Assembly (NCBI GenBank): GCA_900316035.1
Contig: ONBI01000004.1
Coordinates: 1 to 57,928 of the forward strand
Direction: 5' to 3'
DNA: 57,928 nt
Source: an uncultured Eubacteriales bacterium
GTDB taxonomy: Bacteria > Bacillota_I > Bacilli_A > RFN20 > CAG-288
Below the pieces are notes generated by a model. The model was not told the DNA's origin, ran no database searches, and saw only the letters and a program-made list of their open reading frames with translations. Position numbers and translations under genes: made by a program. Below, piece after piece: positions 285-17,573 of this stretch; the first letter of the stretch is position 1, and each line of letters opens with the position of its first letter.

Positions 285-1400
285 TCAGTCCTTCAGGACG
301 AAAGAAGTATAGAGATCCAGATCGCCACTGACCGGAGTCAGATCGGTGAAAGCACCGTTTGTCACATTCGGGGTCTTGGTCGTATACCAGCCCTGGAAGA
401 GGTAACCCGACTTCGTCGCAAACGGAACAGGTTCCCCGACCGAGGCAAAGCACATGCCTTTGGAGATGGTATAGGAGTAGGTGTTGGTCGAAGAAGTGAC
501 CGGCTGAGTATTTCGGGTGATGACTTCATCTCCATTCCAGTGGAAGGAGACGGTATAGGATTTGGTCTCCTCGGTCGGAATTGTGATCTTAGCGACCCAG
601 ATACCATTCTCCCTTAGATAGATGATTCCATCCTTGGTATCAAAATAATAGTCGCCGTCCTTAGCTCCATTAACTGTCTCCGGCTGACCGTTTCCCTGAT
701 ACCATTTCGAAGTCGTAGGAAGAGTGAGTGTGACGGAGGAAGTATCGCCGTTGCTATAGGTGAAAGTCAGAATATAGGTTCCTTCCTCTTCTCCGGTTCC
801 CTGTTTTCCATCGATGGAGACGATGCCGTTTCCGCTATCTCCTTTTTCGCCTTTCGGAACACGGAAGACAAATTCCTGCCCGGAGGTTAGGACGATATGG
901 ATGAGGGTATTCCCCATCTCATCGGTGGAGGCATTTAGGCTTTGGATGGAGTCTCCCTCTTTCCCTTGAGGGATAACGATAGGGTCGCTCTCTTTTCCGT
1001 CGGAGAACGTGAAGTAGAGCTTGGTCTCCCCGGTCTTCTCATCCACCTCGGTCCGATACCCGAGCACCGAGACGCCGTTAGGAATCGTCACCTTGGAGTC
1101 CTTGCTTCCCTCCGCGGTATAGGAGATGGTGAGGATGGTGCTTTTTCCATCCTCGGACTGGCTCTCCTGAATCTGACGGATACCGTTTCCGCTTTCGCCT
1201 TTGGGAATGGTGAAGGTGAGAGGCTTTTTGTCTTCGTCGGTATAATGGATGGTGACGAGGGTGTTCCCTTCGTCATCCAGCTCCGTTTCGATACTGGCGA
1301 TCTTCAACGAATCCTCTTCCCCGCTGTCGACGAAGTTGCAAGCCGAGAGCGGGAGAGAGAGAAGAAGGGGGATAAGACAGAAAAATCTTCTTAGTTTCAT
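285..1400 (-). CDS. Repeat lipoprotein with C-terminal InlB-type domain
   Basis: This is a predicted surface lipoprotein of 371 residues. A signal peptide ends in a lipobox (LPLSAC, Cys21). About five degenerate repeats of roughly 35-40 residues follow, each with a beta-hairpin ('TLVTIHYTD', 'TILTISYTA', 'TKLYFTFSD', 'TLIHIVLTS', 'TYILTFTYS') and ending in a Pro-Lys/Gln-Gly turn such as IPKGESGNGI or VPKGEKGDSG. Next is a segment around WYQGNGQPETVNGAKDGDYY, and finally an InlB/Flg_new-like repeat with SGYLFQGWYT. No enzymatic motif is seen; a binding or adhesive role is inferred. It is the last gene of the minus-strand operon and its start overlaps the stop of the preceding beta-helix gene by 4 bases. 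Confidence 0.8.
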   Translation of the reverse strand: MKLRRFFCLIPLLLSLPLSACNFVDSGEEDSLKIASIETELDDEGNTLVTIHYTDEDKKPLTFTIPKGESGNGIRQIQESQSEDGKSTILTISYTAEGSKDSKVTIPNGVSVLGYRTEVDEKTGETKLYFTFSDGKESDPIVIPQGKEGDSIQSLNASTDEMGNTLIHIVLTSGQEFVFRVPKGEKGDSGNGIVSIDGKQGTGEEEGTYILTFTYSNGDTSSVTLTLPTTSKWYQGNGQPETVNGAKDGDYYFDTKDGIIYLRENGIWVAKITIPTEETKSYTVSFHWNGDEVITRNTQPVTSSTNTYSYTISKGMCFASVGEPVPFATKSGYLFQGWYTTKTPNVTNGAFTDLTPVSGDLDLYTSFVLKD

Positions 1401-3874
1401 AGCGAATCGCCTCCTTTGGCGTTCTGAATCAGAGTTGCTAATTTCGGAGAATCTCCGAAGAGATAATTATCTTTTGCCGCATTATAGGAAACAAAGGAGA
1501 AAGGCGAAAAACCGATGACCAGGTTGATCGCTTTTAGCGAATAAGACGTGAGAGGGGAGAAGGAAGCTTCTTCTTGTGGAAGCGAAGCATCGAGCAGGTC
1601 GCAGGAGAAAGGTGAAGAGAATTCGTCGCTCTTTTCACACTCTGAGGTATCGATCGTAGAGAGATTGATGCCCCCTCCATAATAGGAGACAGGGATATTG
1701 AGAAACTTCTCTTTCTCTTCCGTATTCTCTTCCTTCTTTTCGGCTTGGTATCCTTTTTTCTCTATCTGCGGGAAGAGGAGCTGTTTGATCGGGAAGATGC
1801 TATCGATGGTCACGGGTTCCTGAGTGAAACTGCTCAGGAGATCTCCTAATCTTTGGTAGATCAGTTCGCTGAGATCAAAATCCTCTTCTTTCTTGTAATC
1901 ATAGAAGCGGGTCTTTCCGACCAGCTTCAGTTTCGCCGGATAGGAGATTCCGCCGATGTTCTCGGCAAAGAGGGGGAAGGGATTTCCGGAGCTTGCCCTT
2001 TGGAGAGAAGAGAGCCGCGAACGGAAGGCGGAAGGGGATTTCCGTTCCATGAAGGGACCGTCGAAGAGAGAGGAGAAGACGATCGAGGAGATACCCGAGC
2101 GGTAGAAGAGCGTATCTTTGAGGGTCACCTCACACTTGTAGAGATCTTCTACTCGGCTTTTCCCGTTCAGGTTTTCGTCTAGACGACGCAATACTCTCAG
2201 GGCTTTTTCTTTCTCCTCCGAAGAGAGAGAAGAGGTGTTCAGGTATTCTCCTAAGAGAGCATCCGCGGATAATTCCGGAGCGGATCCTTCCGAGTAGTCC
2301 TGGAAGAAATTCTCGAGAGTGGTTCTTCCTTCTTCGCCTTTCCAGGTGTAGAAGGATTTCTCCTCGTCCCAGGAAGGAGTGAGGTATTCATCGTTTCCAA
2401 TCTCCAGAAGGAAGTTTCTGGCATTGCTCAATAGACAGTTTTCCACGAGGAGATTCTTCGAGGAATACGCTCTTAGGATATTCCTTCCGTTTTCCAAGAC
2501 GCAATTGCGGATTTTGACATCGTCGGCATGGACATCGACGACGTTTCCGACGTAATCCAGATTTGCTAAGCTATCGCCGAAATCGGCGTTGCGGATCTTG
2601 ACATCGTCGATAATGACTCCGTCTCCATCGATATAAAGCCCGGAATTATCCTGCCCGTAGATTTCGATCAGCGGGTTCTGCGGAGTTCCTAAGCAATAGA
2701 AGGGAAGAGGGCCTCTAAAAAGATCCGAAGAAGAGAGAAGAGGCATTTCTCTCCCGTTCTGGGTGATGGTCTTCTGCGGATAGCAAAGATCGTGGAAATC
2801 CAGAGAGTAGCCGTTTCCGTAGAGGTCTTTGGTCAGATGCAGAGCGGAGAGGACGTTTGCTTCTATCGGGCGATAGCTCTTGGTATTCTTCGACTTAGCA
2901 AATTCGTTCCACTGGTCGATGAAACCGTGAGGATAACTCGTTTCATGGGAATAGACTTCCTTTTCAAAGGAGAACTTTTCCTTCTCGAAGTCGTAATGGC
3001 CGAAGAGGGCTAAGGAAGTGTCCTTCTTCTTGGGAGAGCCGTTTTCGTCCTTGAGGACTTTCCCTTTCTCATCGAGAAAATAGCAATCGGAGAGCCTTCC
3101 GAAACTCGTCTGCAGGACCAGAGGGGAAGGATCGTCCTTGGTCGCATAGAGGAGGTCGTCATAGGAATAAGCATTGATGCCATGGGGTAGAATCGTATAG
3201 GAGAGAGTGATATCCGGAATCGAGGAGTTATTCAAAGAGAGAGTGAAGGAAGAAGAACCGGAAGAGAGAACATGAAGCGTCTTGTCGGAGAGGTCGAAAG
3301 AGATATTCGGAGTCTCTTCCTTGACGGTGAGGTTTGCTTCTAAGGAACGCGGCTCGACTTGAATCTCAAAAGGGACTTCGGCTAAGGTTTTCTTTCCGTT
3401 CTTGTAATCGTATTCGCCGAGGTACGATTTTCGATCGATCCTCGCACCGGATTCCTTGTTCTTGCGGTTGATGAGGATGGCGCCATGCTGATACGTATAT
3501 AAGGTGAAGGATTTGGAGACGGTCCCTTTTTCGTTTTCACAGGTGATTGTGCTTTTTCCTTCGTCTAAGGCTTTTAGCACATACTGACCCCCTTCTTTAC
3601 GTAAGGAGACGTGACTGCTTTTCGCTTCATCGTCGCTACTCTCTTTCCAGACGAGGTCGTTTCCTTTATCGAGGACGAATTTCGGATCGTAGAGAGGTTT
3701 TGCTTCTAAGGTCAGAGTATCCCCGACCTTCAGGCCTTCGTTATCGCGGTAAGCAAAAGAGATGCCGCTGATATCTTTCGCTATCGTGGGACCTAAGATT
3801 TTCGCGGTGGATAACCCGAGCAAGGCAAGGAGGAAAGGAAGACAGGCGAGAAGAGCAAGATTGCGTTTTCTCAT
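1397..3874 (-). CDS. Secreted Ig-like plus parallel beta-helix surface protein
   Basis: An 825-residue exported protein. The N terminus has a basic start and hydrophobic segment (about 4-25) without a lipobox Cys. Residues about 30-130 resemble a bacterial Ig-like (Big) domain, including the DEGKSTITCE strand. Around 400-480 there are successive short strands (GLYIDGDGVIIDDVKIRNA, VVDVHADDVKIRNCVLENG, NLLVENCLLSN) typical of a right-handed parallel beta-helix as in pectate lyases and surface adhesins. No catalytic residues could be assigned and no LPXTG anchor is present. It starts 4 bases after the permease stop, so the two are probably translationally coupled. A cell-surface binding or structural role is inferred from context. 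Confidence 0.75.
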   Translation of the reverse strand: MRKRNLALLACLPFLLALLGLSTAKILGPTIAKDISGISFAYRDNEGLKVGDTLTLEAKPLYDPKFVLDKGNDLVWKESSDDEAKSSHVSLRKEGGQYVLKALDEGKSTITCENEKGTVSKSFTLYTYQHGAILINRKNKESGARIDRKSYLGEYDYKNGKKTLAEVPFEIQVEPRSLEANLTVKEETPNISFDLSDKTLHVLSSGSSSFTLSLNNSSIPDITLSYTILPHGINAYSYDDLLYATKDDPSPLVLQTSFGRLSDCYFLDEKGKVLKDENGSPKKKDTSLALFGHYDFEKEKFSFEKEVYSHETSYPHGFIDQWNEFAKSKNTKSYRPIEANVLSALHLTKDLYGNGYSLDFHDLCYPQKTITQNGREMPLLSSSDLFRGPLPFYCLGTPQNPLIEIYGQDNSGLYIDGDGVIIDDVKIRNADFGDSLANLDYVGNVVDVHADDVKIRNCVLENGRNILRAYSSKNLLVENCLLSNARNFLLEIGNDEYLTPSWDEEKSFYTWKGEEGRTTLENFFQDYSEGSAPELSADALLGEYLNTSSLSSEEKEKALRVLRRLDENLNGKSRVEDLYKCEVTLKDTLFYRSGISSIVFSSLFDGPFMERKSPSAFRSRLSSLQRASSGNPFPLFAENIGGISYPAKLKLVGKTRFYDYKKEEDFDLSELIYQRLGDLLSSFTQEPVTIDSIFPIKQLLFPQIEKKGYQAEKKEENTEEKEKFLNIPVSYYGGGINLSTIDTSECEKSDEFSSPFSCDLLDASLPQEEASFSPLTSYSLKAINLVIGFSPFSFVSYNAAKDNYLFGDSPKLATLIQNAKGGDSL

Positions 3875-3878
3875 AAGA

Positions 3879-5462
3879 TTAACTCCTTACTTCCATTTTT
3901 AAAAAGAGATTCCTGATCCGTTTCCGGAAATGGATGAGGAAAGGAAGGGAAGAGAGAAGCAAAACGCCGCTTGAGAGGAGGACGATTCCATAGAGCGGGA
4001 CGTGATAGAAGCTAAGCAACAAAGAGAGGAAGAAGAGAAGGATCGGCAGGACCCAGTCATAGAGAGAAGAAAGAAGGCGGTTTCTCTCTTGCTCCGGTTT
4101 TCGTTTCAGCTCTTCTCTAAGGGAAGCCAAAGAGGAAATAGCTAAGAAGAAAGCCCCGGTAAAGAAAGATAATACTCCCGTAAGAGGGCCTAACTCCTTC
4201 GTGGAAGTCAGAACAATAATGGTGACGAGGAGAGAGATAAGACAGGAAAGATAAGGAATCGCCAGTTTGATCCATAGCTGTAAAGAAGGAGAAAGGGGAA
4301 GAATCTTCATGATCTTGAGACTTCCTTTCTCGATACCGATGTAGTTATCTCCGCCGGAGAGGAGAGTGACATAGATGAGTAGAAGCAGACAGAGATCGAG
4401 ACTTTCGAAAAAGGTAGGGAAAAGAGCGGTATAGTAAGAGACCAATCCGGAACGGAAGACGCTGTTCATCGCCTTGAGAAGGAGATAAGAGAAGAAAGGA
4501 GCGACGAAAAGAAGCCCGGAAAAAGAGAAGAAGTTCTCCGAAGAAAGAAACAGTAAGGAACATTCTTTCCTCCAAAGCGCTTCCCAGGGTTTCAGCGGCT
4601 TCTTCGCTCTTATGGTCTTTCTCTTCGCCGGCGTTTCTTCTGCCGTGATCCGATAAGAGAGCGATGCAAAAAGCACTCCGAGAAAGAAGATGACTAAGGA
4701 TAAAAGAAGCGAAAACACAAACGACCATCCTTCGTTGTAAAGAAGAAAACGGAGGAAGAAAGAGGTCGGGTAGAAAGACGAAGTGATGCTAGAGAGCTTT
4801 GCAAGACTATCGGTAGAAAAGAGAGTGATCAGCTCATTCTGATTCACCAGTTCCAAAAAGAGATGAAGAACAGAGGAATAGAGGAAACTGAGAAGAAAAA
4901 GGAGAGCGAGAGAAAAAAGGAAACCAAGCCAGGGAATCCTTCTTAGCCAAGTCTTTATCTGGTGATAGGGAATGGTGAGAAGCAAGGCTGCTCCTACTTC
5001 CGTCAACGCGGCAAAGAGAGAGTAGAAGAGAGATTGGAAGTAGAAAAAAGGAAGCTTATGAGTGAGTACACCGAAGGTGAGAAGAAGAGGATAAGCGGTC
5101 AAAGCGTCATAAGCGACCTGTAAGAGCAGAAGGAAGAGGACATCGCTGAAGACGATTTCCTCTTTCCGGATGGGAAGGGTGCTAAGCACCTTCCGATCCT
5201 GCTTCTGGAAGAGAAGCTTTTCCGAGGCGAGTAAAGAGAGAACGAAGAGGAAGATAGAGATCGCAAAAAGGAAAAGGATCAGAAAGGAGTTGCTCGCTCC
5301 TTCAAAAGAGGTGACTTTGCTTAAGACACCACGGAAGAGGAAAATCTCGAGCGTCAGAGCAAGAGCCACGAAAAGAACGCGGAAAAGAAGGTTTTCCCTT
5401 CTTTCCTTCTTGTCCTTTTCAAAGCCGAAGAGAAGCTTGAAGTTCTTGCCAAGAAGTGTCAT
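3879..5462 (-). CDS. ABC transporter permease (ABC-2-like)
   Basis: A 527-residue polytopic membrane protein with many hydrophobic segments (for example LFVALALTLEIFLF, LILFLFAISIFLFVLSLLAS, LFSLALLFLLSFLYSS, ILLFFLSLLLSFYHV), consistent with about 12 helices. A cytoplasmic loop is rich in basic residues (AKRKTIRAKKPLKPWEALWR). It pairs with the ABC ATPase directly upstream through an ATGA overlap (5459-5462). The substrate is unknown. Because the operon otherwise encodes surface proteins and their processing enzymes, export or a step in envelope assembly is the likely role, but this is inference. Confidence 0.8.
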   Translation of the reverse strand: MTLLGKNFKLLFGFEKDKKERRENLLFRVLFVALALTLEIFLFRGVLSKVTSFEGASNSFLILFLFAISIFLFVLSLLASEKLLFQKQDRKVLSTLPIRKEEIVFSDVLFLLLLQVAYDALTAYPLLLTFGVLTHKLPFFYFQSLFYSLFAALTEVGAALLLTIPYHQIKTWLRRIPWLGFLFSLALLFLLSFLYSSVLHLFLELVNQNELITLFSTDSLAKLSSITSSFYPTSFFLRFLLYNEGWSFVFSLLLSLVIFFLGVLFASLSYRITAEETPAKRKTIRAKKPLKPWEALWRKECSLLFLSSENFFSFSGLLFVAPFFSYLLLKAMNSVFRSGLVSYYTALFPTFFESLDLCLLLLIYVTLLSGGDNYIGIEKGSLKIMKILPLSPSLQLWIKLAIPYLSCLISLLVTIIVLTSTKELGPLTGVLSFFTGAFFLAISSLASLREELKRKPEQERNRLLSSLYDWVLPILLFFLSLLLSFYHVPLYGIVLLSSGVLLLSSLPFLIHFRKRIRNLFLKMEVRS

Positions 5463-6223
5463 GATGCCTCCTTCGTTTCTGTCTCCTGAGAGAAGAGAGC
5501 AGGTAACATCAGACGGTAATTGGGTTCTTGCCGGAGATCGAGAAGCCTTGTGATCTTGCCGTCCTTGAGGATTCCGACCCGGTCACAGAGCTCACTGACG
5601 AGCTTGATATTATGGGAGGTAATCAAGACGCTATGGCCGCTATCGGCATAAGCGCGCATCATCTTCTTCAAAGTCTCTATCGCCATCACATCTAAGCCGA
5701 CCGTCGGTTCATCGAGAATCCAGAGAGCGGGGGTATGTAACAAAGAGGCGATGAGGCAGAGCTTCTGTTTCATGCCGTGGGAGTAAGAAGAGATCTCTCT
5801 TGCTAAGTCTTCCTCCGACAAGGAGAAACGATGAGCGAGGTAGCTCTTGTTTTTCTCTAGCTCTGCTTCTTCCACTCCGTAGACCGAGGCGATGAAGTCG
5901 AGATATTCGTCTCCTGTCATGACTTCATAGCAGAGAGGTTCGCTGGCGACATAGCCGAAGAAGCTTTTCGCTTTGACGGGATCTTTCTTTAAGGAGACTC
6001 CCTTAATCTCGACGTCCCCTTCTTCAAAATCCTTCGCTCCGATGATACAGTCGAGAGTCGTGGATTTTCCGACTCCGTTTCTTCCGATGAATCCGAAAAG
6101 CTCTTTCGGATAGACTTCGAAGTCTATCCCATCGAGAACCTTCTTCGCCCCATAGGATTTCTTCAGTCCGCGGACCACGAGAGAAGGATGCGGATGTAGC
6201 GTGTTCTTGGTTTGGGAATTCAT
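5459..6223 (-). CDS. ABC transporter ATP-binding protein
   Basis: A 254-residue nucleotide-binding subunit. It has Walker A GRNGVGKST, a signature region SSYSHGMKQKL in place of LSGGQ, Walker B LWILDEPTVGLD and the switch histidine in LITSHN. This belongs to the CcmA/drug-exporter type of ATPase that works with ABC-2 permeases, and the permease follows directly with a 4-base overlap. The start overlaps the stop of the upstream DUF2357-like gene by 4 bases, so the two are probably co-translated. Confidence 0.93.
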   Translation of the reverse strand: MNSQTKNTLHPHPSLVVRGLKKSYGAKKVLDGIDFEVYPKELFGFIGRNGVGKSTTLDCIIGAKDFEEGDVEIKGVSLKKDPVKAKSFFGYVASEPLCYEVMTGDEYLDFIASVYGVEEAELEKNKSYLAHRFSLSEEDLAREISSYSHGMKQKLCLIASLLHTPALWILDEPTVGLDVMAIETLKKMMRAYADSGHSVLITSHNIKLVSELCDRVGILKDGKITRLLDLRQEPNYRLMLPALFSQETETKEAS

Positions 6224-7497
6224 TTGTCCCTCCTTTCTCCGAGGCTGCGGAACCAGATCTTCGGAAGCAAATCTCCTTTGGCCGGCAAAAAGCTATATTC
6301 GAGATGGCAATGAGAACAGCGGTAATGCCCCTGATAGGGAAGGATTGAGGAAGAGAGGCAGTTTGGGCACAGATGGGTATAGATCTCTTTTTCCCCAACC
6401 CTGGTGAAGTAAAGAAGTCTACATAGCTCCTCCATCAAGGAAAAGGAATCAGGATAGAATACTTTCCGGTTGGAATAGGCGAGCGAAAAAGGAGTGAGTA
6501 CAAACGTACGGGGAGGTAAAGTCTCTCTTTTCTCTTTTTTCTCTTCCTGGAAGAGAAGCGAGTAGTTCTCTTGGTTTTCTCCTTTCGGAAGGAGCAAAGA
6601 AGTGACCTGAACTTCATAGCGGTTTTCTTTCTTCTGTAAGACGAGAGAGCATTCCTCCTTCTTGGTGAAAACCATCAGCCAGGAATAAGAGAAGGTATCC
6701 TGGTTATCGATCTTGTAACCGGCTTTGAGCAGAGCAAAGAGGAAGAGAGGAAGACAGAGAGAAGCGATTATGGACTCCGTCTCTTTTTGAGAAACGAGCG
6801 AGACTCTCTTCCGATAGTCCCGGTAGAGCTGCTGATAAAGAGGATCGTGAAGGAGGATATTGGTCGGTTCATAGAAAGGAATCTGGGGGCGTTTCCTTTT
6901 TACGATCCGATAGAAGGGAGTCGCTTGGATGCGCTCAACTTTCTTCCTCAATTGCTCGAGCAAGAGATAATCCCGGCTCACTCTTTCGGCGGCTAAAGAA
7001 GAAGAGGAATCTTCCTCGCCGGTCTTAAGAAGCCGGGAGAGGAGATAGCTTTTCTCCTCGAGTTCCTTTTGATAGAGGTCGAGGAGAGAAGTGAGAAAGA
7101 AATTCTCATAGGTGCTAAGATCCTCTTCTTCTTTCCGACAGTAGACCTCTTTCGGATAAAAGGCATAGCCTCCTTTTTTCTTCCATAAGGAAGCGTCTTT
7201 ACCGGTCTCTTCTAAGAGATCCTCCTCGATATGAGAGACACGCTCGCTTTTTTCTAATTCCACGATTCCTTTCGGATTCCAACGGGGAGAAGAGAGAATC
7301 GAAAGGACGATAGAGAGATTCTTCCGATAGACCTTTGCTTCTTTTTCACACGCATTTAAGAAGAGAGAAACAAAATCGGGGAGCTTCTCCTTGTCAAACG
7401 AAGAAAGGAAATCCGGCGACAGAAAAGCCGAAGCAGGATAACGCTGCTCCGTCTCTCGGAAAAGATCATCCAGGACTTTTCTCTCGCACTTGTTCAT
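6220..7497 (-). CDS. DUF2357-like (McrBC-associated) protein with zinc ribbon
   Basis: A 425-residue, mainly soluble protein. Two segments resemble DUF2357 proteins that accompany McrB-type ATPases: STYENFFLTSLLDLYQ (about 128-143) and NILLHDPLYQQLYRDYRKR (about 210-228), with TPFYRIVKRKRP between them. The C terminus holds a CPNC...CSHC zinc ribbon (about 377-397). No PD-(D/E)XK nuclease motif was found. It begins 6 bases after the McrB-like ATPase gene and overlaps the ABC ATPase gene, so it is probably the ATPase's partner. The family call rests on motif memory only and is moderately sure; function unknown. Confidence 0.5.
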   Translation of the reverse strand: MNKCERKVLDDLFRETEQRYPASAFLSPDFLSSFDKEKLPDFVSLFLNACEKEAKVYRKNLSIVLSILSSPRWNPKGIVELEKSERVSHIEEDLLEETGKDASLWKKKGGYAFYPKEVYCRKEEEDLSTYENFFLTSLLDLYQKELEEKSYLLSRLLKTGEEDSSSSLAAERVSRDYLLLEQLRKKVERIQATPFYRIVKRKRPQIPFYEPTNILLHDPLYQQLYRDYRKRVSLVSQKETESIIASLCLPLFLFALLKAGYKIDNQDTFSYSWLMVFTKKEECSLVLQKKENRYEVQVTSLLLPKGENQENYSLLFQEEKKEKRETLPPRTFVLTPFSLAYSNRKVFYPDSFSLMEELCRLLYFTRVGEKEIYTHLCPNCLSSSILPYQGHYRCSHCHLEYSFLPAKGDLLPKIWFRSLGERRDK

Positions 7498-7503
7498 CTT
7501 GCT

Positions 7504-9342: not shown

Positions 9343-10300
9343 GTGGAGTTTCTCCTTTATCTTTGGTTTGTTCGTCTGGAAGGTAGGGAATGAGCGGAAG
9401 AGAAGAGTCTTCTCTTGCTTCTTTCTTCCCTTTCCCGTCTTCTTCGATCCGATAGACAACATCCTTGACTGAGAGATAGAAAGGGGTAGTCTTGACTTGC
9501 TTTCTTCTCTTCTCCAACTCTTCCTTCAGGTACTGCTTTCTCTTTTCCTTCGCTTCCTCTATCTTTTGGTTCTCCCTATCGACGAGAACGAGGATATAGA
9601 GGATCCCTACCCCGGTAAGAATGCCAGGAACCGAGGGAAGGAACAGGAGGAAAGCTCCGATCTTCTTCAATCTTCTCCCGTGATACACCCCGACGATATC
9701 CGAGTAGGAAGGATGGTAATCGTCGGAAGCGTTATTGGCATCGCCTCTTGTGAGATAGGTTCCATCCTCTCTTTGAGCGATGAGGCGGTGGAGGATGGTG
9801 ACTTTCTTCTCCCGGTTCTGATAGGCGATGACATCGTAGAGATGGATATCTTCTGGGGAAGATGGCTTCTGAAGAAAAACGATATCGTAGGTCTGAAACT
9901 GATAATCTCTTCTTTCCTCGTCTATCGTCTGGTCAAATAGATACGTGTTCTCTTCGTTTTTTTTCGACATGGACCCGGAAGCGACGACCAAGGCACTCTC
10001 GTTTCCAAGGACCGGGACATTCCCCTCAATCCGTGTGACGAAGGCATAAGTCATAAGAGGAATAAGGAGGAGAAGATAGATGGTGGAGAGAACCTTGTAA
10101 ACGATCTGCGAAACTCTTTTTTTCGGCGGTTGTTCCTGCTCTTTCAGAAGAGCATCCAGAATCAAGACATCGTTCTCTCCTACCTCTACTCTCTTGACCT
10201 CCTCTTTCCGATAGCGAAGAAGAAAGAAGGTAAAACCAGTGCAGAGAAGTAGCAGGGCCAGAGCCGTGATAAAACTAGCAATAAGGTAAGGCTTATTCAT
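9329..10300 (-). CDS. sipW: SipW-like type I signal peptidase
   Basis: A 323-residue membrane signal peptidase of the ER/SipW type, which uses a Ser-His pair instead of Ser-Lys. The catalytic Ser is in ASGSMS (Ser110) and the His in TILHRLIA (His171); RGDANNASDDY (about 185-195) supplies the conserved acidic residues. Two N-terminal helices (about 6-28 and 70-88) and one after the catalytic domain (about 222-242) anchor it, followed by a charged coiled-coil tail of about 80 residues, unusually long for SipW. It directly follows six genes whose products carry SipW-type signal regions, which are its obvious substrates. The gene symbol reflects family membership only. Confidence 0.88.
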   Translation of the reverse strand: MNKPYLIASFITALALLLLCTGFTFFLLRYRKEEVKRVEVGENDVLILDALLKEQEQPPKKRVSQIVYKVLSTIYLLLLIPLMTYAFVTRIEGNVPVLGNESALVVASGSMSKKNEENTYLFDQTIDEERRDYQFQTYDIVFLQKPSSPEDIHLYDVIAYQNREKKVTILHRLIAQREDGTYLTRGDANNASDDYHPSYSDIVGVYHGRRLKKIGAFLLFLPSVPGILTGVGILYILVLVDRENQKIEEAKEKRKQYLKEELEKRRKQVKTTPFYLSVKDVVYRIEEDGKGKKEAREDSSLPLIPYLPDEQTKDKGETPHGSK

Positions 10301-10307
10301 ATCAAGA

Positions 10308-11006
10308 TCAGCCGAGAAGAGGACGGATATCGAGCGTCAAGGAAGCCTTTTTTCCCTCTTCGGTTTGGCGGGAATCTTCCACGAGCGAATAGAAATCCTT
10401 GAGAGTCGCTTCCATCTCCTCATCGGAGACTCTCTTTCCCGTCTCATCCTCATCGTAATATTCCCCGGGGTTCTTCCCGTGGAAGAAGGATCCCCAGGTA
10501 AAAGAGATCGGATAGGCAAAACACTTTTCCGAAGAAGAGACTTCGCCATCTTTGACGTAATCGGAGATATAAGGTTTCTCGGTCGGAATCGTCGCTCCTT
10601 CCTCGCTTGTAGCAACCTCGGGAAGGAGGAGATAATTCTTTCTCATTGCCTCCTTCAAGCCATCGGGCAAGGATAGAATCAGCTGAAAACCGCGGACCGA
10701 AGAAGCGTTCGTATAGCGGAAAGACAAGGTCGAAGAGAGAACCTCGACCTTCTTGCTGTTACAGCGGACCCTTCCGGAATAATCTCCCGCTTTCGGTTCA
10801 AAGCAGAAACGGTTCTCCGAAAAAGAGACATCCTTCAAAGTGAGGGAAGAGGATTCGATCGTTCCTACTTTCAGTTCCCCTTCGTTCTCTTCTCCTTTTT
10901 TCTCTAAGGCGACCACGAGAAATGCACTCGCCAGAAGTACGAGAGTCAATAGGGCGAAAGAAACGAGTCCGATGGTAACTTTTTTGGCTTTTCTATCCGA
11001 GGTCAT
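10308..11006 (-). CDS. SipW-dependent TasA-like secreted protein, paralog 6
   Basis: A 232-residue paralog, and the last of six small secreted-protein genes before sipW (7-base gap). The N-terminal helix (about 10-33) is more degenerate than in its siblings, lacking the clear GxGFAA motif, but the segment after it (ELKVGTIESSSLTLKDVSF) lines up with the others. The family motif WGxxFxxxNPxxYY is present as WGSFFHGKNPGEYYDEDE. The fold is probably all-beta like TasA/CalY. It may be a minor component, or it may stay membrane-anchored if cleavage fails. Exact function is unknown. Confidence 0.75.
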   Translation of the reverse strand: MTSDRKAKKVTIGLVSFALLTLVLLASAFLVVALEKKGEENEGELKVGTIESSSLTLKDVSFSENRFCFEPKAGDYSGRVRCNSKKVEVLSSTLSFRYTNASSVRGFQLILSLPDGLKEAMRKNYLLLPEVATSEEGATIPTEKPYISDYVKDGEVSSSEKCFAYPISFTWGSFFHGKNPGEYYDEDETGKRVSDEEMEATLKDFYSLVEDSRQTEEGKKASLTLDIRPLLG

Positions 11007-11028
11007 TCGCTTGAGGTGAGGGAGAAAC

Positions 11029-11727
11029 TCAGTTGAGCTTCACCGAAAGATTGACCGTCATCGTACCAGCAGCATCTAGTTCCTTTTGGAAAGCTTCTAA
11101 GGTCGACTTCATTTCACTATCCGAGACGAGCTTTCCATTCTCATCCGTATCGTAGTATTCCCCCGGGTTTTTGCTGTTGAAAACACTTCCCCAGCCGAAA
11201 GAGAAAGTATAGGAGACGGATTTCGTGTTGTCCTTACCCTCGGTATCGGAAACGACGGCAGAGGTAGTCGACCCATCAGCTTTGATATCAAGGCCTATCA
11301 ATTCGTTCGTGTTCTCTTTATAGGCGGCGATCTCCGGCAAAGTGATGTAATTGTCGCTTGCCGCTTTCCGAATACCTTCCGGAACTTCTAAATCGATATG
11401 GATCGCATCGACGGTATCCGCTTGATCGAAGGTGAAAGTCAAGGTGGTAGAAAGTGCTTCGCTCTCTTTTCCGTCATAACGGACTCTTCCCTTGGCATCT
11501 TCTGCTTTCGGCTCAAAAGCGATCTTCGTATTCGAAAGAGCGATATCGTTGATATTGACCGATTTTTCTTCGACCTTTCCGATCTCGATAGCGCCGGTGA
11601 TCTCCTGCGGTTTATTGGTAGAGATGATGAAAGCGGCAAAACCGGTTCCGACTAGAGCAAAAGCGGAAAAGAGAGCAATCCCGACCATCATCTTCTTCCC
11701 GACAACGTTTTTCTTAGTCGTCTTCAT
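11029..11727 (-). CDS. SipW-dependent TasA-like secreted protein, paralog 5
   Basis: A 232-residue secreted protein with a basic N terminus, a helix and the GTGFAAFIIST cleavage region typical of SipW substrates. IEIGKVEEKSVNINDI marks the first strands of the mature protein. It carries the family motif WGSVFNSKNPGEYYDTDENG and is close to paralogs 4 and 6 (shared FEPKAEDAKGRVR-type segment). It is predicted to be exported, cut by the adjacent SipW-like peptidase and built into surface fibres or a matrix; this is by analogy with TasA. The gap to the next gene is 22 bases. Confidence 0.8.
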   Translation of the reverse strand: MKTTKKNVVGKKMMVGIALFSAFALVGTGFAAFIISTNKPQEITGAIEIGKVEEKSVNINDIALSNTKIAFEPKAEDAKGRVRYDGKESEALSTTLTFTFDQADTVDAIHIDLEVPEGIRKAASDNYITLPEIAAYKENTNELIGLDIKADGSTTSAVVSDTEGKDNTKSVSYTFSFGWGSVFNSKNPGEYYDTDENGKLVSDSEMKSTLEAFQKELDAAGTMTVNLSVKLN

Positions 11728-11744
11728 ATTTTTCTTCCTTTCTC

Positions 11745-12461
11745 TCAGTTATTCGTAGCACTGAGATTCACGACACATTTTTCGCTTGTCTTCCCATCTT
11801 TTTCCGGAAGAAGCGAAGCGAATTCCTTCAGGGTGGAGGCAACTTGCTCTGAGGGAACGGCTTTTCCTTTTTCCGTCTCGTCATAATAGCGGCCGGGGTT
11901 TTCGTTTGCGAACTTCTCTCCCCAGCCGAAGCGAATCGTATAGGTGAAGCTCTTTCCGTTCTGTAGATCGGTTCTCTTGCACTCCTGGATATGATCCTGA
12001 TCCAGAGAAGTGTAGTCTGGCCCATCGACAGAGAAGACTTTTCCTTTTTCCAGCTCTTCCTGGTCCTCTAAGGTGATGTAGTTCTCTTCGATCGCTTTGC
12101 GGATACCTTCCGTCAGCTCTAATTGGATGGTCAAGGAAGATAAGAGGTCCGCATGATCGAAAGAGAAGCTAAGGGAGGTAGCTAGGATCTCATCCCCTTC
12201 TCCGTCGCTCCGTACTCTCCCTTCCTTGTCCTCTTTTTGAGGAAGGAAGGAGATCGTATGTTCACTGAGAGAAACATCATAGAAATGGGTTGTCTCATCC
12301 TTCACTTCGCCGATCGTGATATTGCCTTCTACTTTCTCACTGACCTTTCGGCTTACGATAAAAGCTGCAAAGCCGACAGAGTTCAGAGCCAAAAGAGAAC
12401 ATAGCGAAAGCAAAAAGAGAATTCCTTTCCTCGGACGATGAATTATCTTTTTCTCATTCAT
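11745..12461 (-). CDS. SipW-dependent TasA-like secreted protein, paralog 4
   Basis: A 238-residue member of the same family. The signal region is MNEKKIIHRPRKGILFLLSL...SVGFAAFIVSRK, then IGEVKDETTHFYDVSL. It contains WGEKFANENPGRYYDETEKG. GAGGTAG upstream of the ATG at 12461 serves as ribosome binding site. The predicted mature protein is acidic and beta-rich. Spacing to the next gene is 17 bases. Role as a surface fibre subunit is inferred from the neighbouring sipW. Confidence 0.8.
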   Translation of the reverse strand: MNEKKIIHRPRKGILFLLSLCSLLALNSVGFAAFIVSRKVSEKVEGNITIGEVKDETTHFYDVSLSEHTISFLPQKEDKEGRVRSDGEGDEILATSLSFSFDHADLLSSLTIQLELTEGIRKAIEENYITLEDQEELEKGKVFSVDGPDYTSLDQDHIQECKRTDLQNGKSFTYTIRFGWGEKFANENPGRYYDETEKGKAVPSEQVASTLKEFASLLPEKDGKTSEKCVVNLSATNN

Positions 12462-12525
12462 GAACCGTTTACTACCTCAAGGAAAGATCCTGTGAAAGGA
12501 TTCTTTCGAACAAAGAGACATCGTA

Positions 12526-13248
12526 TCAAGCTGTTTTTGGCGTAGCCAAAACCGTAAGAGTGAAAGAAACACCATTCAGATCCGTCGCAAGAGCCGATAA
12601 AGAGGCACTAGCATCATCCGCATAGGTGGTGGAAGAATTTTTTAAGGTATCATCAGCCTTGTTCGAGTTGTAATAGGTATAAGGATTCTTACCTCCGAAA
12701 TGAGTTCCCCAGACAAAAGAACCGGAGATATCAATATCCACGCTAGAGGTATCTAAGGAAGTATGTAACGTGTTCTCAGTTCCGAGAGCGGGCAAAGCAT
12801 CTGACGGAGCAGTGAAAGAGAGATTGCCGGAAACATAGCCTGCAGTAACGGCTTTTGCCCATCCTCCCTTGGCATTGTCATTCACAGAAATCTTGTACTT
12901 GATCTCGCTGACCAGATTGCTGAGGTTTGTCTTTTTATCCTTCGAAGCAAGCGTGAAAGAAAATTTGAAATCAAGGTCTTCAGTAGCTTTATCGTCTCTG
13001 GCAAGCCAAGGATTTGTGACATTTTTATCCGCTTTGCTGCTGAAAGAGATGCTCTGAACTGGCGCATCTTTGGCGGTCAGAGTGACACGCTTATCTGTGA
13101 TGCCTTCCGCGGTGATGGTATTACCACTGACTGTCTGAGTCGCATCCTGCCCGACAATCGTCCAAGCAGCAAAACCGACTCCGACCGAAAGCCCGATAGC
13201 AAAAAGGGAGAGAACCGGGACAAGAAACTTCTTAGAATGCTTTTTCAT
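12526..13248 (-). CDS. SipW-dependent TasA-like secreted protein, paralog 3
   Basis: A 240-residue protein with the clearest SipW-type signal: MKKHSKKF, a hydrophobic helix, then SVGVGFAAWTIVGQDATQ and GNTITAEGITDKRVTL. The family motif reads WGTHFGGKNPYTYYNSNKAD, and a STTYADDASASL stretch is shared with paralog 2, so these two are the closest pair. Low in charge and rich in Ser/Thr/Ala, it looks like a structural subunit. The start is followed downstream by a 64-base gap before paralog 4. Confidence 0.82.
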   Translation of the reverse strand: MKKHSKKFLVPVLSLFAIGLSVGVGFAAWTIVGQDATQTVSGNTITAEGITDKRVTLTAKDAPVQSISFSSKADKNVTNPWLARDDKATEDLDFKFSFTLASKDKKTNLSNLVSEIKYKISVNDNAKGGWAKAVTAGYVSGNLSFTAPSDALPALGTENTLHTSLDTSSVDIDISGSFVWGTHFGGKNPYTYYNSNKADDTLKNSSTTYADDASASLSALATDLNGVSFTLTVLATPKTA

Positions 13249-13263
13249 AATCGATAATTCCTT

Positions 13264-13944
13264 TTACTTGCTCGTATCGAAATTAGCCGTCACCTTCAAC
13301 ACAAATTTGGCACCATTCAGCTTGGAGAGCGCTGTCAATGCTGTCTTAGCATCATCCGCATAGGTGGTGGAAGAATCTTTTACTGTTAAGGTTTCATTAG
13401 CACCTTTCGAGTTGTAATAGGTATAAGGATTCTCCTTTCCGAAATGAGTTCCCCAGTCAAAAGAGCCGGAGATAGCATAGGTAGCGGAACCATTTTCACC
13501 CATGGTCTTTGTTCCGATGGTGATGGTCGGAGCAGTGACATAATTGGCAGAAACAACGGCATCCCAATCGGTCTTGTTAGCTTCCGCAATTGCGATAGTT
13601 GCTGTAACTTCTGAGCAATAAGCGGCGTTATCAACTGTTGCGACGAAATGGAAATCGAGGTCTTCTGCGGACACATCGTTTTCCGCGATAAGCCAATCTG
13701 TGTCTTTGTTTGTCGCATCCTTCGGTTTTCCGAAGACGATGGTGTTAGAGTCATTTTCCGCTTTCGTCACTGACAAGGCGATACGTTTATCGGTGACGGT
13801 ATAAGCAGTGACAGTGGCTCCTTCGGCATTTTTTGTTTGATTGCCACCTGCGATGACCCAGGCAGCATAACCGACTCCGGCAAGAGAGAAGATGGCACCT
13901 GCACTGAGGAGGGGAATGAGGATTTGGCGTTTTCTTTTTAGCAT
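13264..13944 (-). CDS. SipW-dependent TasA-like secreted protein, paralog 2
   Basis: A 226-residue sibling of paralog 3. The signal region is MLKRKRQILIPLLSAGA..SLAGVGYAAWVIAGGN followed by AEGATVTAYTVTDKRIALS. It carries WGTHFGKENPYTYYNSKGAN and SSTTYADDAKTAL. AAAGGA precedes the start. The 15-base gap to paralog 3 and shared motifs suggest a recent tandem duplication. It is predicted to be exported and SipW-processed. Confidence 0.82.
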   Translation of the reverse strand: MLKRKRQILIPLLSAGAIFSLAGVGYAAWVIAGGNQTKNAEGATVTAYTVTDKRIALSVTKAENDSNTIVFGKPKDATNKDTDWLIAENDVSAEDLDFHFVATVDNAAYCSEVTATIAIAEANKTDWDAVVSANYVTAPTITIGTKTMGENGSATYAISGSFDWGTHFGKENPYTYYNSKGANETLTVKDSSTTYADDAKTALTALSKLNGAKFVLKVTANFDTSK

Positions 13945-14051
13945 AACTTTTTTCCTTTCTTTTTCTTTTTGTCTGTCTATTATCCGATTCTAGGTAAGAG
14001 TCTTTTTGGAGGAGATAGAGGAGTAGCAAGAGCCTATTCAGGTATGGTTCT

Positions 14052-14621
14052 TCATTTTTCGATCACCTCCAGCGTCAATTTGGTTGCTTTTGTTTTGCTT
14101 GCGTCTGTCAACGTGTATTGAATCGTTGCTTCAAAAGGAGAGGGCAAAGAGGAGGAAGCTTGAAAAGAGATGGTGTTCGTAAGCTGATGTTTATCGGTAG
14201 ACATCTGGTTTTCATGGACGGAAGCGCTAATGGCGCTTGCTGTAGAAGAGAGAGTAGGCGGAGAAGTAATACTTGCAATAGTGGTTCCGCTTTCCGGTTC
14301 CGCTAAGGTGAAGCAGAAACCTGCTTCTTTTTGATCCGAAAAACCAGTGAAAGTGATGGTTGCGGAAAGAACTCCGTTATCCTTTGCCAGATGATCGGAA
14401 GGATCGATAAAACCATCGCTTGCATAGAGATAAGAAGTATTATGGAAAGAAACAACGATGGATTTCTTCCTATCTTTGAAGTCTTCCGCAGTGATATCTC
14501 CGTTTGCTTTTGCTTCCACCGCTTTTCCATAAATATAGTAAGAAGAAAAACCTACCCCTACCATCAGGAGAGGAAGTAACACGGAAAGCAGAATGATCCA
14601 GACTTTACTATTTTTTCTCAT
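14052..14621 (-). CDS. SipW-dependent-type small secreted protein, paralog 1 (short)
   Basis: A 189-residue protein, the shortest and most divergent of the set. It has the N-terminal helix and cleavage region (VGVGFSSYYIYGKAVEAKAN) and the ITAEDFKDRKKSIVVSF strand like its siblings, but lacks the WGxxFxxxNPxxYY segment, so it is either truncated or a distinct subunit type. No strong ribosome binding site lies before the ATG; it starts 19 bases after the large adhesin gene and may depend on translation of that gene. A 107-base gap follows. Confidence 0.7.
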   Translation of the reverse strand: MRKNSKVWIILLSVLLPLLMVGVGFSSYYIYGKAVEAKANGDITAEDFKDRKKSIVVSFHNTSYLYASDGFIDPSDHLAKDNGVLSATITFTGFSDQKEAGFCFTLAEPESGTTIASITSPPTLSSTASAISASVHENQMSTDKHQLTNTISFQASSSLPSPFEATIQYTLTDASKTKATKLTLEVIEK

Positions 14622-14640
14622 GGTCGTTCAGCAATGATCA

Positions 14641-16769
14641 TTAATCCCATACCATTGCAAGGTCGAATACGAAGGTCGACTCGAAAGACTTCCCGTCCGG
14701 AGTGGTAACTTTCCCTTTCACGTTGATGTGTTGGGTTCCATAATTGCCGGTAGTAAACCCATAGTAAAAGGGATTCGTATTTGTTTCGCTCGCACTCAAA
14801 GCAGGGTAATCTTCGTTTCCGGTGACCGTCCATAGATAGGTGGAACCATCTAAAGCGCTGGATGGATCAGTAGTTATCGTAAACTTCAAATATAGGTAGC
14901 CAATGGTATAGTTCCCTTCTGGGTCCCAATCATCTAATTTAGACAGAACTTTAACTAGGTTAATTTTCTCGCGATTATTAATTTTCTCGCTTATACCATA
15001 CGTTTTATATAACTCATAGTCCGGATTCGTCACGCAGTTGATGTTTATTGCGAAATCATTCGCTTTGAAACTCCATCCGGATTGCTGTTCCAGATGGGAA
15101 TAAGTGCCGTTCTTGGTTAAAGATACTAAAGTCAAAGTCTTCGTGGAATGGTCATAGACATCTCCCGTTGGTTGATAAGTAAATTCAGCTGTTGTAATAC
15201 CACTTGAAATTTCCTTTACCGTCAGCGAGTCTCCTAAAAATCCTGAGGTTTCTACCTTAGCATCTTTGGCGTCAGCATCTGTGGTGACCTTGCCGCCAAA
15301 GAGGTTCTGTAGCTTCAGAGTGCCGTCATTCTTTAATACAGCCTGTCCTACTTCTGTACTGTAATAATCCTTAGGACGTGGATCCGTGACACCGCTATCG
15401 GTATAGGAATGGACGAGCAAGCCTCGGTTGGTGGTTAATGTAGCGTTCTTTCCAATCGTTAAAGAACTCCCCGGCAGAAGCTTTACATCCTTTGAAAGAG
15501 TAACATCTGTGGGGGTTGAAGTGCTTTCTGTGTTCTCCGTTAACTGGATTTGGAACAAGTTAGAAAGCGGGAAATAGTAATCCGCACTAGAGTAAGAAGT
15601 GTCTTCATCTCCAATTGTAATTGTTAAGGATTCAAAAGAATACTTTCCACGGATCGAGATGTCTAAAGCATGGGTATTCAAGATTTTGTGACTGGTGTCT
15701 TGGAGATTCGTAATCTGGGTTCCTTTGCTAAAGTCGGTGTTCTTGAGTGTGATGCTTCCTCCGGAGTTACTCTCTTCGGACTGGAAGAGGCCGGTGTTGT
15801 CACTGGTTTTCCCCACAATTACAACTTCACTGAAGTGGTTAGTCTTATTTTTGCCCCATCCAGCACAGATATTGACAGAACCTGTCAGATTGCTTCCGCC
15901 ATCAAAGATAGTTTTAGGAGCAATCTGTGGTAAGTCAAAGAGGTTGAAAGGAAAAACGGAATGAAGTTCACCAGAATCGGTACCCCCTCTCCAATCATAA
16001 ATGACAAGAGGCTCGATTACTTTTCCGGTGGAGGCAACATGGATGTAGGATCCGTTGCCGTTCCTCTCGTCCTCTCCGGAAATCACAGTATTACGGGTTC
16101 CGTAATCTTCCCGAATAAAACCATCGCAACGGATAGTTCCGTTGCATTCGATATAGGAGCTGCTCTGCAGTAATAGTTCGGCATAGGAACCGGTGGTCTG
16201 GCCTTGAGTGTTCGGAGACACTGCGTTTCCTCTTTCACCCCCGATATTCAATGTTCCGTTGACGGTGAGAGTGTGATTGGTGGTTAAGACCACTTGTACT
16301 TTTCGTTTGGATTCATCGGTGTCGGCAAAACTATTGGCAGGGTAATTCCCCTTGCTGTCTTTGGAGGCTTGCCCATTCATGGTAACTGTATTGGTATAAG
16401 TCTCTCCATCATACGGCAATGTCAAAGTGACACCACTATCGATGGTGCAGCTCTCTTTGATTTCTATCTTATTTCCTAAACCCGGAATCGCATAGACAGT
16501 GATTTTGCCTTTGAGCGGACTATCCTCTTTCAGGCTTTTTTCCAACGCGTTGGCATCCTTCAATCCATCCTCGATGCTCGCATAATACTGCTTCTTACTA
16601 TCTTCGTTCGTAAAATAGCAGACCGCATGACTAAAGCTGAGGTTGGTAGTCGCAGAACCGGATGCCTTTATCTCATAACTTGCAAAAACTTGCGGGGGGG
16701 GCAAATTATAGTCATGATTAAAGTAGCCAATGCGATAGAGATTCTTCTGAGCCTTAGGCTGCTTTTCAT
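14641..16769 (-). CDS. Large secreted adhesin-like protein with C8 frameshift tract
   Basis: First gene of the operon. From 16704 downward there is an open frame of 687 codons starting only with TTG and lacking a ribosome binding site. Upstream, ATG at 16769 (GAAAGG upstream) opens a perfect signal peptide (MKSSLRLRRISIALATLIM..) in another frame. The two join at a run of eight C (plus-strand G run, 16694-16701). Nine Cs would fuse them with a signal-peptidase site after QVFA. The mature protein is rich in beta-solenoid-like turns (TLTVNGTLNIGG, YIECNGTIRCDGF) and ends without a sorting motif. It is probably an adhesin or fibre tip. As read here the gene is out of frame; a sequencing error in the homopolymer is possible. 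Confidence 0.7.
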
Positions 16770-16887
16770 GAAAATCTTTTGCCTTTCTTTAAATGCGGGA
16801 AATGTTCTTTTGGACTCAGCCAAGAAAACAATTTCCATTATTACAGAAACAACGAATTCCTTGAGGTGCTACAAACCTCTGAAACTG

Positions 16888-16896
16888 ATTATACCA
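16888..16896 (-). promoter_or_regulatory. Extended -10 promoter of the surface operon
   Basis: TGGTATAAT reads on the minus strand about 120 bases upstream of the ATG at 16769. It is a perfect TATAAT with the extended TGn element; no good -35 box is seen at 17 bases. It is the best candidate for the promoter of the whole operon. Confidence 0.6.
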
Positions 16897-17225
16897 CTTG
16901 CGAAAGGACAAACCACCATGGATTTCTTTCAAAAAAGCAGAGGGATTCCAGGAGAGAAATACTATTAAACAAAACAAGAAAAAGTGGTGCTGATTTAGGT
17001 GACCACTTGGAGAGAAGAAAATAACGATGATGCCTGAGGCGATTGGTACAACTTGTTATGGTGAAAGAGGATTGGGAATATCTATATTCATTGTTCACCC
17101 TTAAGATTTTGTGTCTGTTACTTTTTCTCAAATGCCTATTTTCTTCCCTATCCTCCCTTTTTACGGAGCATTCCTTTGATGAGATCTTTCTATCCGTTTT
17201 CGAAACTTTTTCGCGCAATCCAAGC

Positions 17226-17255
17226 AAAAAGGGAACCCGTCGAAGGTTCCCTTTT
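17226..17255 (-). terminator. Rho-independent terminator
   Basis: GGGAACC and GGTTCCC form a stem with a 7-base loop, flanked by A5 on the left and TTTT on the right. It can terminate in both directions; on the minus strand it would end the fmt-ybaK-GH13 transcript about 320 bases after the GH13 stop. Confidence 0.75.
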
Positions 17256-17573
17256 ATCCGATACTGTATCAATTGAGACTCCGTAAGATATCGACATGCT
17301 TCTTGTTCATGTGCATATTCAAAGAAAAAAAAGAAATCCGTTTCCCAAGATAATCCGAAGCAGCAGGAAAAGAAGTGACTTTTTTCCAAGAAACCGGTCA
17401 GGGAGATTGGTTTCCCCTATTTTTCGGATTCCCTTTATTGTCTTGATAAAGACCTCGGAATCCCTCGTTCGGGGAAACATCGTATTTTCTCATCTTCCTT
17501 TTGCTATTGGACCAAGGAAGGTCTCTTTTCTTCCACAGCGTTTTTTTCGATAGTTTCCCTAAAAACGACCGAT

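Follow-up and report, generated by a model that had tools for sequence, protein, structure and literature searches.

A conserved gene block joining a membrane-anchored McrB protein to SipW/Tas-like secretion genes and an ABC/beta-helix module in Bacilli

Introduction

The cutting of foreign DNA is what McrB-type nucleoside triphosphatases (NTPases) are known for, and TasA and SipW of Bacillus subtilis are encoded in a matrix-fibre operon. NosDFY(L), the assembly machinery of nitrous oxide reductase, consists of an ABC ATPase, a permease, an exported right-handed beta-helix protein and a lipoprotein, and in NosFYD the ATPase moves the beta-helix outside the membrane. Components that recall these three systems meet in a 14-gene operon on a contig of an uncultured Eubacteriales bacterium (ONBI01000004.1, 57,928 nucleotides), analysed at its full length and called the window in the following; in a draft genome of 1.86 Mb, 75% complete, it makes up the entire contig G000:C48. 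The operon encodes, in this series, a large secreted protein, six Tas-like paralogs, a SipW-type peptidase, an McrB-like protein with four transmembrane (TM) segments, a DUF2357 protein, an ABC ATPase, a permease, a beta-helix protein and a lipoprotein (genes 1 to 14). The closest described system is CoCoPALM, in which an McrB with an NxD motif is fused to an FtsB-like TM/coiled-coil domain, McrC carries coiled coils and linked signal peptidases likely act in pilus assembly; it was named briefly by Bell et al. 2024 (PMC11090510), with details deferred to a later paper.

The likeness of the window to CoCoPALM lies in its NxD McrB, its McrC-like partner, the linked SipW-type signal peptidase and the Tas-like secreted proteins, so that an earlier, sequence-only reading of this DNA was not quite right in knowing of no described system with such a gene set. 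The differences are architectural as well as in gene content. The McrB of the window has four TM segments and an unconserved linker, whereas the McrB proteins of the CoCoPALM-like loci L041, L042, L051 and L052 have one TM segment and a charged helix, and the partner protein of the window is short and ends in a zinc ribbon. The window has an ABC ATPase, a permease, a beta-helix protein and a lipoprotein, whereas the CoCoPALM-like loci that we found (these four, L060 and others across the class) have none of them. The McrB clade of the window also branches apart, as 27 four-TM McrB proteins form one group in the tree (support 84/98), separate from relatives with one or 12 TM segments. Since the NxD motif and the link to a signal peptidase are common to both, while the N-terminal architecture differs and ABC, beta-helix and lipoprotein genes are added, we therefore file the block as a variant of the barely described CoCoPALM kind, in which the four-TM architecture and the extra genes are new. 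A literature search, with most subscription journals outside its reach, returned CoCoPALM only in the paper of Bell et al. and its preprint, no paper relevantly linking SipW with McrB and nothing on Anaeroplasma together with SipW.

Two further observations touch this comparison. The genome of the window itself probably holds a CoCoPALM-like locus (L145, G000:C13, and L146, G000:C11), where a longer McrC homolog is accompanied by a SipW-like peptidase and by surface proteins of very large size. The NxD McrB relatives encoded in loci L047, L048, L049 and L055 are about 900 aa long and have about 12 TM segments each, which makes them another membrane-bound type of McrB; the copy in L047 has a neighbour that ends in a CxxC pair.

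Results

A profile search of 84,980 genomes with McrB yielded 384 relatives, of which the best 80 were analysed; 56 of these loci are untruncated. Profile searches detected a complete block on one strand in 54 of the 56, comprising eight gene types: Tas-like, sipW, four-TM mcrB, duf2357, ABC ATPase, permease, beta-helix and lipoprotein. The count includes L063 and L074, where the DUF2357 gene is present with its start outside the position range scored (52 by that range), and the two exceptions are L128, which lacks the ABC and beta-helix genes, and L131, described below. Wherever a locus had room for them, sipW was present in 67 of 69 and Tas-like genes in 61 of 62. The loci are records of metagenome-assembled genomes (MAGs), largely from the gut, labelled by their submitters as Bacilli, Bacillales, Acholeplasmatales, Anaeroplasma or 'Clostridia', and their flanks are cut by contig ends.

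Loci picked by McrB similarity are uninformative on how frequent the other genes are without McrB, a point addressed for 59 relatives. In these, a search with the McrB protein found full-length homologs with 38-46% identity in several families, variably present, and the same gene series surrounds nearly all of them. Strong matches to SipW (17), to the four-TM McrB (17) and to DUF2357 (18) adjoin in the same loci, which is the co-occurrence that the sequence-only reading had proposed to score among related Bacilli. Most full-length matches to the beta-helix family also fall in these loci, and the remainder mainly in the McrB-less or ABC-only loci L141-L143. Beyond the order of the window the complete block recurs in L160 and L161, from a further family of the class. 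In a variant arrangement (L037, L038, L053, L057, L135, L140) the lipoprotein gene lies directly behind the DUF2357 gene and the ABC genes farther downstream. Since order and strand are kept across relatives and outside the order, an accidental neighbourhood is ruled out, and the earlier proposal that a membrane-anchored McrB, a DUF2357/zinc-ribbon partner and an ABC transporter are linked with SipW/Tas-like genes holds in the 54 loci and beyond. The genes flanking the block vary from genome to genome; the cassette is conserved and mobile-looking. Anaeroplasma is a cultured, wall-less genus, and complete cassettes are found in a record labelled Anaeroplasma bactoclasticum and a close relative (L071, L072), which may open a way to a model in culture.

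Gene 9 matches the McrB family at 1.2e-5, and its most likely start is the ATG at 9342, preceded by AAAGGAG. By hydropathy its N-terminus contains four TM segments (3-6 in homologs). A Ser/Glu-rich linker without conservation follows, and then an AAA+ domain, whose Walker A (SGTGKSS), DEMN and ANKDDST motifs are conserved. N451, D453 and D454 are invariant in 16 close homologs. All wider McrB homologs keep the N and, at +2, the D; the residue at +3 varies between D, E and G (NRDGS in L128, NKDES in L058), so that the motif is NxD. The counterpart in E. coli McrB is NTAD; unlike that of the E. coli McrBC type IV restriction system, the McrB of the window has NxD and not NxxD, is membrane-anchored and has no DNA-binding domain that we could see.

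The product of gene 10 matches DUF2357 (PF09823) with 26.3 bits at a gathering cut-off of 23.3, as do 9 of 17 homologs. The best structural matches of its predicted model, with a predicted local distance difference test score (pLDDT) of 76.7, are three McrC chains (Z 8.6, 8.3 and 8.2 over 222-229 residues; root-mean-square deviation about 14, with domains shifted); a Z of about 8 alone is not decisive for helical models, but membership in the DUF2357 family would lead one to expect McrC. The pair resembles E. coli McrBC in its related AAA+ NTPase and in a DUF2357 partner whose nearest structures are McrC. For comparison with the coiled coils of McrC in CoCoPALM, the AlphaFold2 (AF2) model of gene 10 offers long helices (residues 130-160 and 167-191) separated by a stretch of low pLDDT. 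A likeness to the restriction nuclease BsoBI (Z 6.2) was also seen for residues 236-363. In an alignment of the 17 homologs no invariant or near-invariant D, E or K lies within residues 229-376, the nuclease region, and the invariant positions fall in the DUF2357 part and on the four cysteines of the C-terminal zinc ribbon. Moreover, no nuclease or toxin gene was recognised in the conserved block. From a McrC-like predicted fold without conserved D/E/K, and from a block without a nuclease gene, we conclude that gene 10 probably encodes an McrC-like activator that has lost its nuclease. The same two findings led us to reject a restriction system and set the window apart from E. coli McrBC, as the partner is without conserved PD-(D/E)xK residues.

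The product of gene 8 scores above the cut-off of signal peptidase I family TIGR02228 (55.9 bits, cut-off 51.85) and reaches 39.5 bits (4e-10) against SipW family NF046067 with its cut-off of 190, indicating a relative of SipW that is not the Bacillus equivalog. S110, H171, D187 and D193 are invariant in 15 homologs, which have three TM segments. Upstream of it, the six paralogs are all related, as the sequence-only reading had seen, and fall into subgroups: each is 37-40% identical to one or two others and 20-24% identical to the remaining three. The AF2 model of gene 6 (pLDDT 82.5) is a beta-sandwich that matches generic Ig-like sandwiches in VIA with Z of about 6; TasA is not among the 50 matches listed there, which excludes nothing. 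A Pfam search assigned none of the six, nor gene 1, convincingly to any family and gave no TasA/CalY match, and an NCBIfam search with 19 Tas-like homologs likewise gave none. We did not assign the paralogs to TasA, for which there is a weak fold match and no family match. The arrangement resembles TasA/SipW of B. subtilis in the SipW-type peptidase beside small secreted beta-sandwich proteins and in the weak TasA fold match; it differs in that there are six paralogs, none of which has a TasA family match, and in that a large secreted protein and the modules of McrB and ABC genes are added.

Genes 11 to 14 are alike to NosDFY(L) in architecture only, with ABC ATPase, permease, exported right-handed beta-helix protein and lipoprotein. 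Against the NosDFY sequence families gene 13 reached NosD at 0.21 only, with a weak Beta_helix match, and no NosY match was found. Members of the gene 12 family match ABC_tran_2 or ABC2_membrane_4, and the nearest solved ATPases to gene 11 are lipid-moving ABCA proteins, with NosF less near. There is no nosZ context. Membership in NosDFY was rejected for want of sequence support, and the system is retained as an architectural analogy.

The modules also occur apart. L141 (G018, 6704-17841) reads Tas-Tas-sipW-ATPase-permease-beta-helix-Tas-like-large secreted protein without mcrB or duf2357, and L143 (G015, 5895-15611) is like it. In the order of the window, SipW loci with neither module (L147, L149-L155) are frequent, and most of them have Tas-like genes. 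The ABC/beta-helix trio stands by itself in L142, without SipW or Tas genes, whereas in L144 (6093-10674) the ABC ATPase-permease-beta-helix trio belongs to a type IV pilus cluster that also has pilins and PilB/GspE-like and GspF-like genes. In L131 (1907-18673) a four-TM McrB and DUF2357 are part of a row of large genes whose products begin like type IV prepilins; three of these genes were tested, and all score above the TIGR02532 cut-off. The McrB pair is not obligatory for SipW/Tas loci. It and the ABC trio are two separate modules, found again next to secreted fibre-like genes of two unrelated kinds, a recurrence that is the strongest hint at their function. The sequence-only reading had held that the neighbourhood would look accidental if relatives carried sipW/Tas-like genes without the pair and the pair stood elsewhere with nucleases. 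The outcome is mixed: the former exist (L141, L143, L147, L149-L155), but the pair was not found beside nucleases.

Runs of G at SipW loci form a second line of observation. With a fixed rule for operon starts, 12 of 77 distinct SipW operons have a run of at least eight G in the 150 bp before their first gene, where chance would give 0.05-0.1 (P about 1e-23). Runs of 8-10 G lie upstream of the SipW/Tas operons of L029, L031, L034, L053, L061, L063, L127, L140, L147, L149, L151 and L152, and in L140, L149, L151, L152 and L063 the run sits between TTGACA and a TATAAT-like box, so that its length sets the spacer. A run of 10 G occupies the same place in the promoter of one pilin-like gene of L131. 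L149 and L151, from two species, have near-identical promoters with 8 and 9 G and hence spacers of 17 and 18, although this comparison takes operon starts from longest open reading frames (ORFs) and is rough.

The genome of the window has only four C or G runs of at least eight, one of which is a C8 run in gene 1. Another long C run of this genome, near a SipW locus (C85:4028, L159), falls within an ORF that looks cytoplasmic and lends weak support. In gene 1 the ATG at 16769 opens a good signal peptide, MKSSLRLRRISIALATLIMTIIC, and the mature part continues in the frame of ORF 14641-16704; the C8 run puts the two out of frame, and 9 or 6 C would restore it. The large adhesin of the sequence-only reading stands as a large secreted protein whose frame is broken in the consensus, and the run is a candidate switched-off state or a consensus error. 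Judged from the sequences, the promoter G runs and the C8 run, neither of which the sequence-only reading had foreseen, suggest phase variation. No relevant paper on TasA with homopolymer phase variation turned up in the literature search.

The positions of all features are collected in Table 1. ORF positions bear out the sequence-only reading's 14 minus-strand genes with gaps of at most 107 bases, the gaps being 4 to 107 bases where genes do not overlap; we counted four overlapping junctions (1397-1400, 5459-5462, 6220-6223 and 9329-9342) where it had given five. The downstream end of the operon lies 284 bases from the contig edge. A promoter had been placed near 16890, and an extended -10 element is indeed there, with a perfect TATAAT at 16893-16888 and a TGG extension; a good -35 is absent, and a consensus promoter scan did not list this TATAAT, although that scan found fewer sites than in shuffled sequences and is uninformative here.

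Table 1. Features of the operon in the window, with positions on the 57,928-nucleotide contig
Feature	Position	Strand	Assignment	Basis
Operon	285-16769	minus	14 genes, one series	
Promoter	16888..16896	minus	probable -10, extended TGG-TATAAT	sequence; TGGTATAAT at 16896-16888
Gene 1	14641..16769	minus	large secreted protein; about 708 aa with its frame restored	ORFs
C8 run	16694..16701	minus	within gene 1 signal peptide; candidate phase-variation tract or MAG consensus error	
Gene 2	14052..14621	minus	Tas-like secreted paralog, 189 aa	
Gene 3	13264..13944	minus	Tas-like secreted paralog, 226 aa	
Gene 4	12526..13248	minus	Tas-like secreted paralog, 240 aa	
Gene 5	11745..12461	minus	Tas-like secreted paralog, 238 aa	
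Gene 6	11029..11727	minus	Tas-like secreted paralog, 232 aa	AF2 model, Foldseek
Gene 7	10308..11006	minus	Tas-like secreted paralog, 232 aa	
Gene 8	9329..10300	minus	SipW-type signal peptidase I, ER/archaeal Ser-His type	TIGR02228, alignment
Gene 9	7504..9342	minus	McrB-like NTPase, four N-terminal TM helices, acidic linker, NxD motif (ANKDDST)	
Gene 10	6220..7497	minus	McrC-like DUF2357 protein, C-terminal C4 zinc ribbon	Pfam, alignment, structure match
Gene 11	5459..6223	minus	ABC ATPase	ABC_tran 1e-21
Gene 12	3879..5462	minus	ABC-2-like permease	homologs about 11-12 TM
Gene 13	1397..3874	minus	exported right-handed beta-helix protein, 825 aa	Beta_helix 0.003, below Pfam cut-off; 13-member family
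Gene 14	285..1400	minus	lipoprotein, repeats + C-terminal List_Bact_rpt domain	Flg_new 7.5e-5; TIGR02543 above cut-off

Discussion

The reading that we consider the probable one is that the cassette makes and handles a surface fibre, with SipW and Tas-like proteins providing the fibre, the ABC and beta-helix proteins a machine, and a nuclease-free McrBC pair an NTPase module in the membrane. SipW would release the Tas-like subunits, and probably also the large adhesin-like gene 1 protein, and the subunits would build the fibre or sit on it as decoration. The ABC ATPase and the permease may work with the exported beta-helix protein as one machine, in which ATP-driven motion is passed to the beta-helix scaffold outside the membrane, with the lipoprotein as an anchor or partner. 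A ring of four-TM McrB with its nuclease-dead McrC-like activator would form a second, NTP-driven membrane module, which may gate, remodel or recycle subunits or precursors without cutting DNA. As McrB-less blocks exist, its role would be regulatory or in quality control and not essential. Formation of the fibre and of the McrB ring, the direction of the motors and the substrate of McrB are points that we infer, as the sequence-only reading did when it proposed that these proteins build, energise or monitor a surface structure.

In favour of this reading are the whole block on one strand in 54 of 56 untruncated loci, its recurrence outside the order of the window, the McrC-like predicted fold without conserved nuclease residues in a block without a nuclease gene, the modules found with other surface genes in L131 and L144, and the TasA fibre as first Foldseek hit of the gene 6 model. 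Several observations weigh against it. The blocks without McrB and DUF2357 in L141 and L143 indicate that the NTPase is not required for the role of the fibre. TasA/CalY family models (Pfam, NCBIfam) match no Tas-like paralog, and in the Foldseek search with the gene 6 model the TasA fibre 8aur ranks first but weakly (E 0.03, TM 0.23). The PADLOC candidate defence family PDC-M26A matches gene 9 at 3e-40; it also matches all related McrB proteins that were tested. Finally, on the 5.9-kb contig of L138 (1749-5940) a four-TM McrB and DUF2357 lie beside an AbiL-like ATPase, a type of protein typical of defence; this is the sole defence-like context seen.

The last two of these points lead to the main rival, which we regard as unlikely: the McrB/DUF2357 pair would serve in defence or as a guard, keeping watch on the surface structure (as a phage receptor, for instance) and responding to any disturbance of it; the neighbouring genes would be what is guarded. 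Apart from the PADLOC match and the AbiL-like neighbour, the ancestry of McrB, the variable presence of the pair among relatives and the phase-variable-looking promoters, which fit phage pressure, agree with such a guard. A guard is however harder to reconcile with a block in which no nuclease or toxin gene was recognised and a DUF2357 partner whose nuclease residues are not conserved, and also with the tight linkage to secretion genes in 54 of 56 loci and the presence of the pair within the pilin-like operon of L131.

We give slightly less credence still to the view that the ABC ATPase, permease, beta-helix protein and lipoprotein are the main machine, exporting or modifying a glycan or lipid surface polymer, with Tas-like proteins, SipW and McrB as accessories. 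The block contains no glycosyltransferase or polymer-synthesis genes, and its Tas-like and sipW genes are as well conserved as the trio, even if the trio stands in L142 without SipW and Tas genes and in L144 within a type IV pilus cluster, and even if the solved ATPases nearest to its own are lipid-moving ABCA proteins. That the locus is an ordinary TasA/CalY-type matrix operon with the McrB, DUF2357, ABC and beta-helix genes as passengers of a genomic island is very improbable and largely refuted, for although the order of the window commonly has SipW loci that lack all of them (L147, L149-L155) and flanking genes differ across genomes, passengers would not keep order and strand at an McrB identity of only about 38-46%, the block also occurs outside the order, and four junctions in the window overlap.

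Returning to a cassette for surface fibres, we propose tentatively, and with somewhat less confidence than the fibre function itself, that a restriction machine has become a membrane motor for surface-fibre biogenesis: it would have lost its nuclease and gained four membrane helices. Together with the beta-helix ABC machine, as modules that can be exchanged, it would serve SipW/Tas-like as well as type IV pilin-like surface systems, some copies being toggled by slippage at promoter G runs. For the carriers, uncultured gut Bacilli and the records labelled Anaeroplasma, the promoter G runs hint at phase-variable surface structures, none of which had been reported for SipW loci as far as the literature search went. 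If the proposal is true, the McrB motor would have a new job, in a widely kept, nuclease-free, membrane-bound form tied to secreted fibre proteins, and the CoCoPALM idea would gain a concrete, testable gene set, in which the natural variants with McrB, without McrB and with pilins allow the role of each module to be asked directly.

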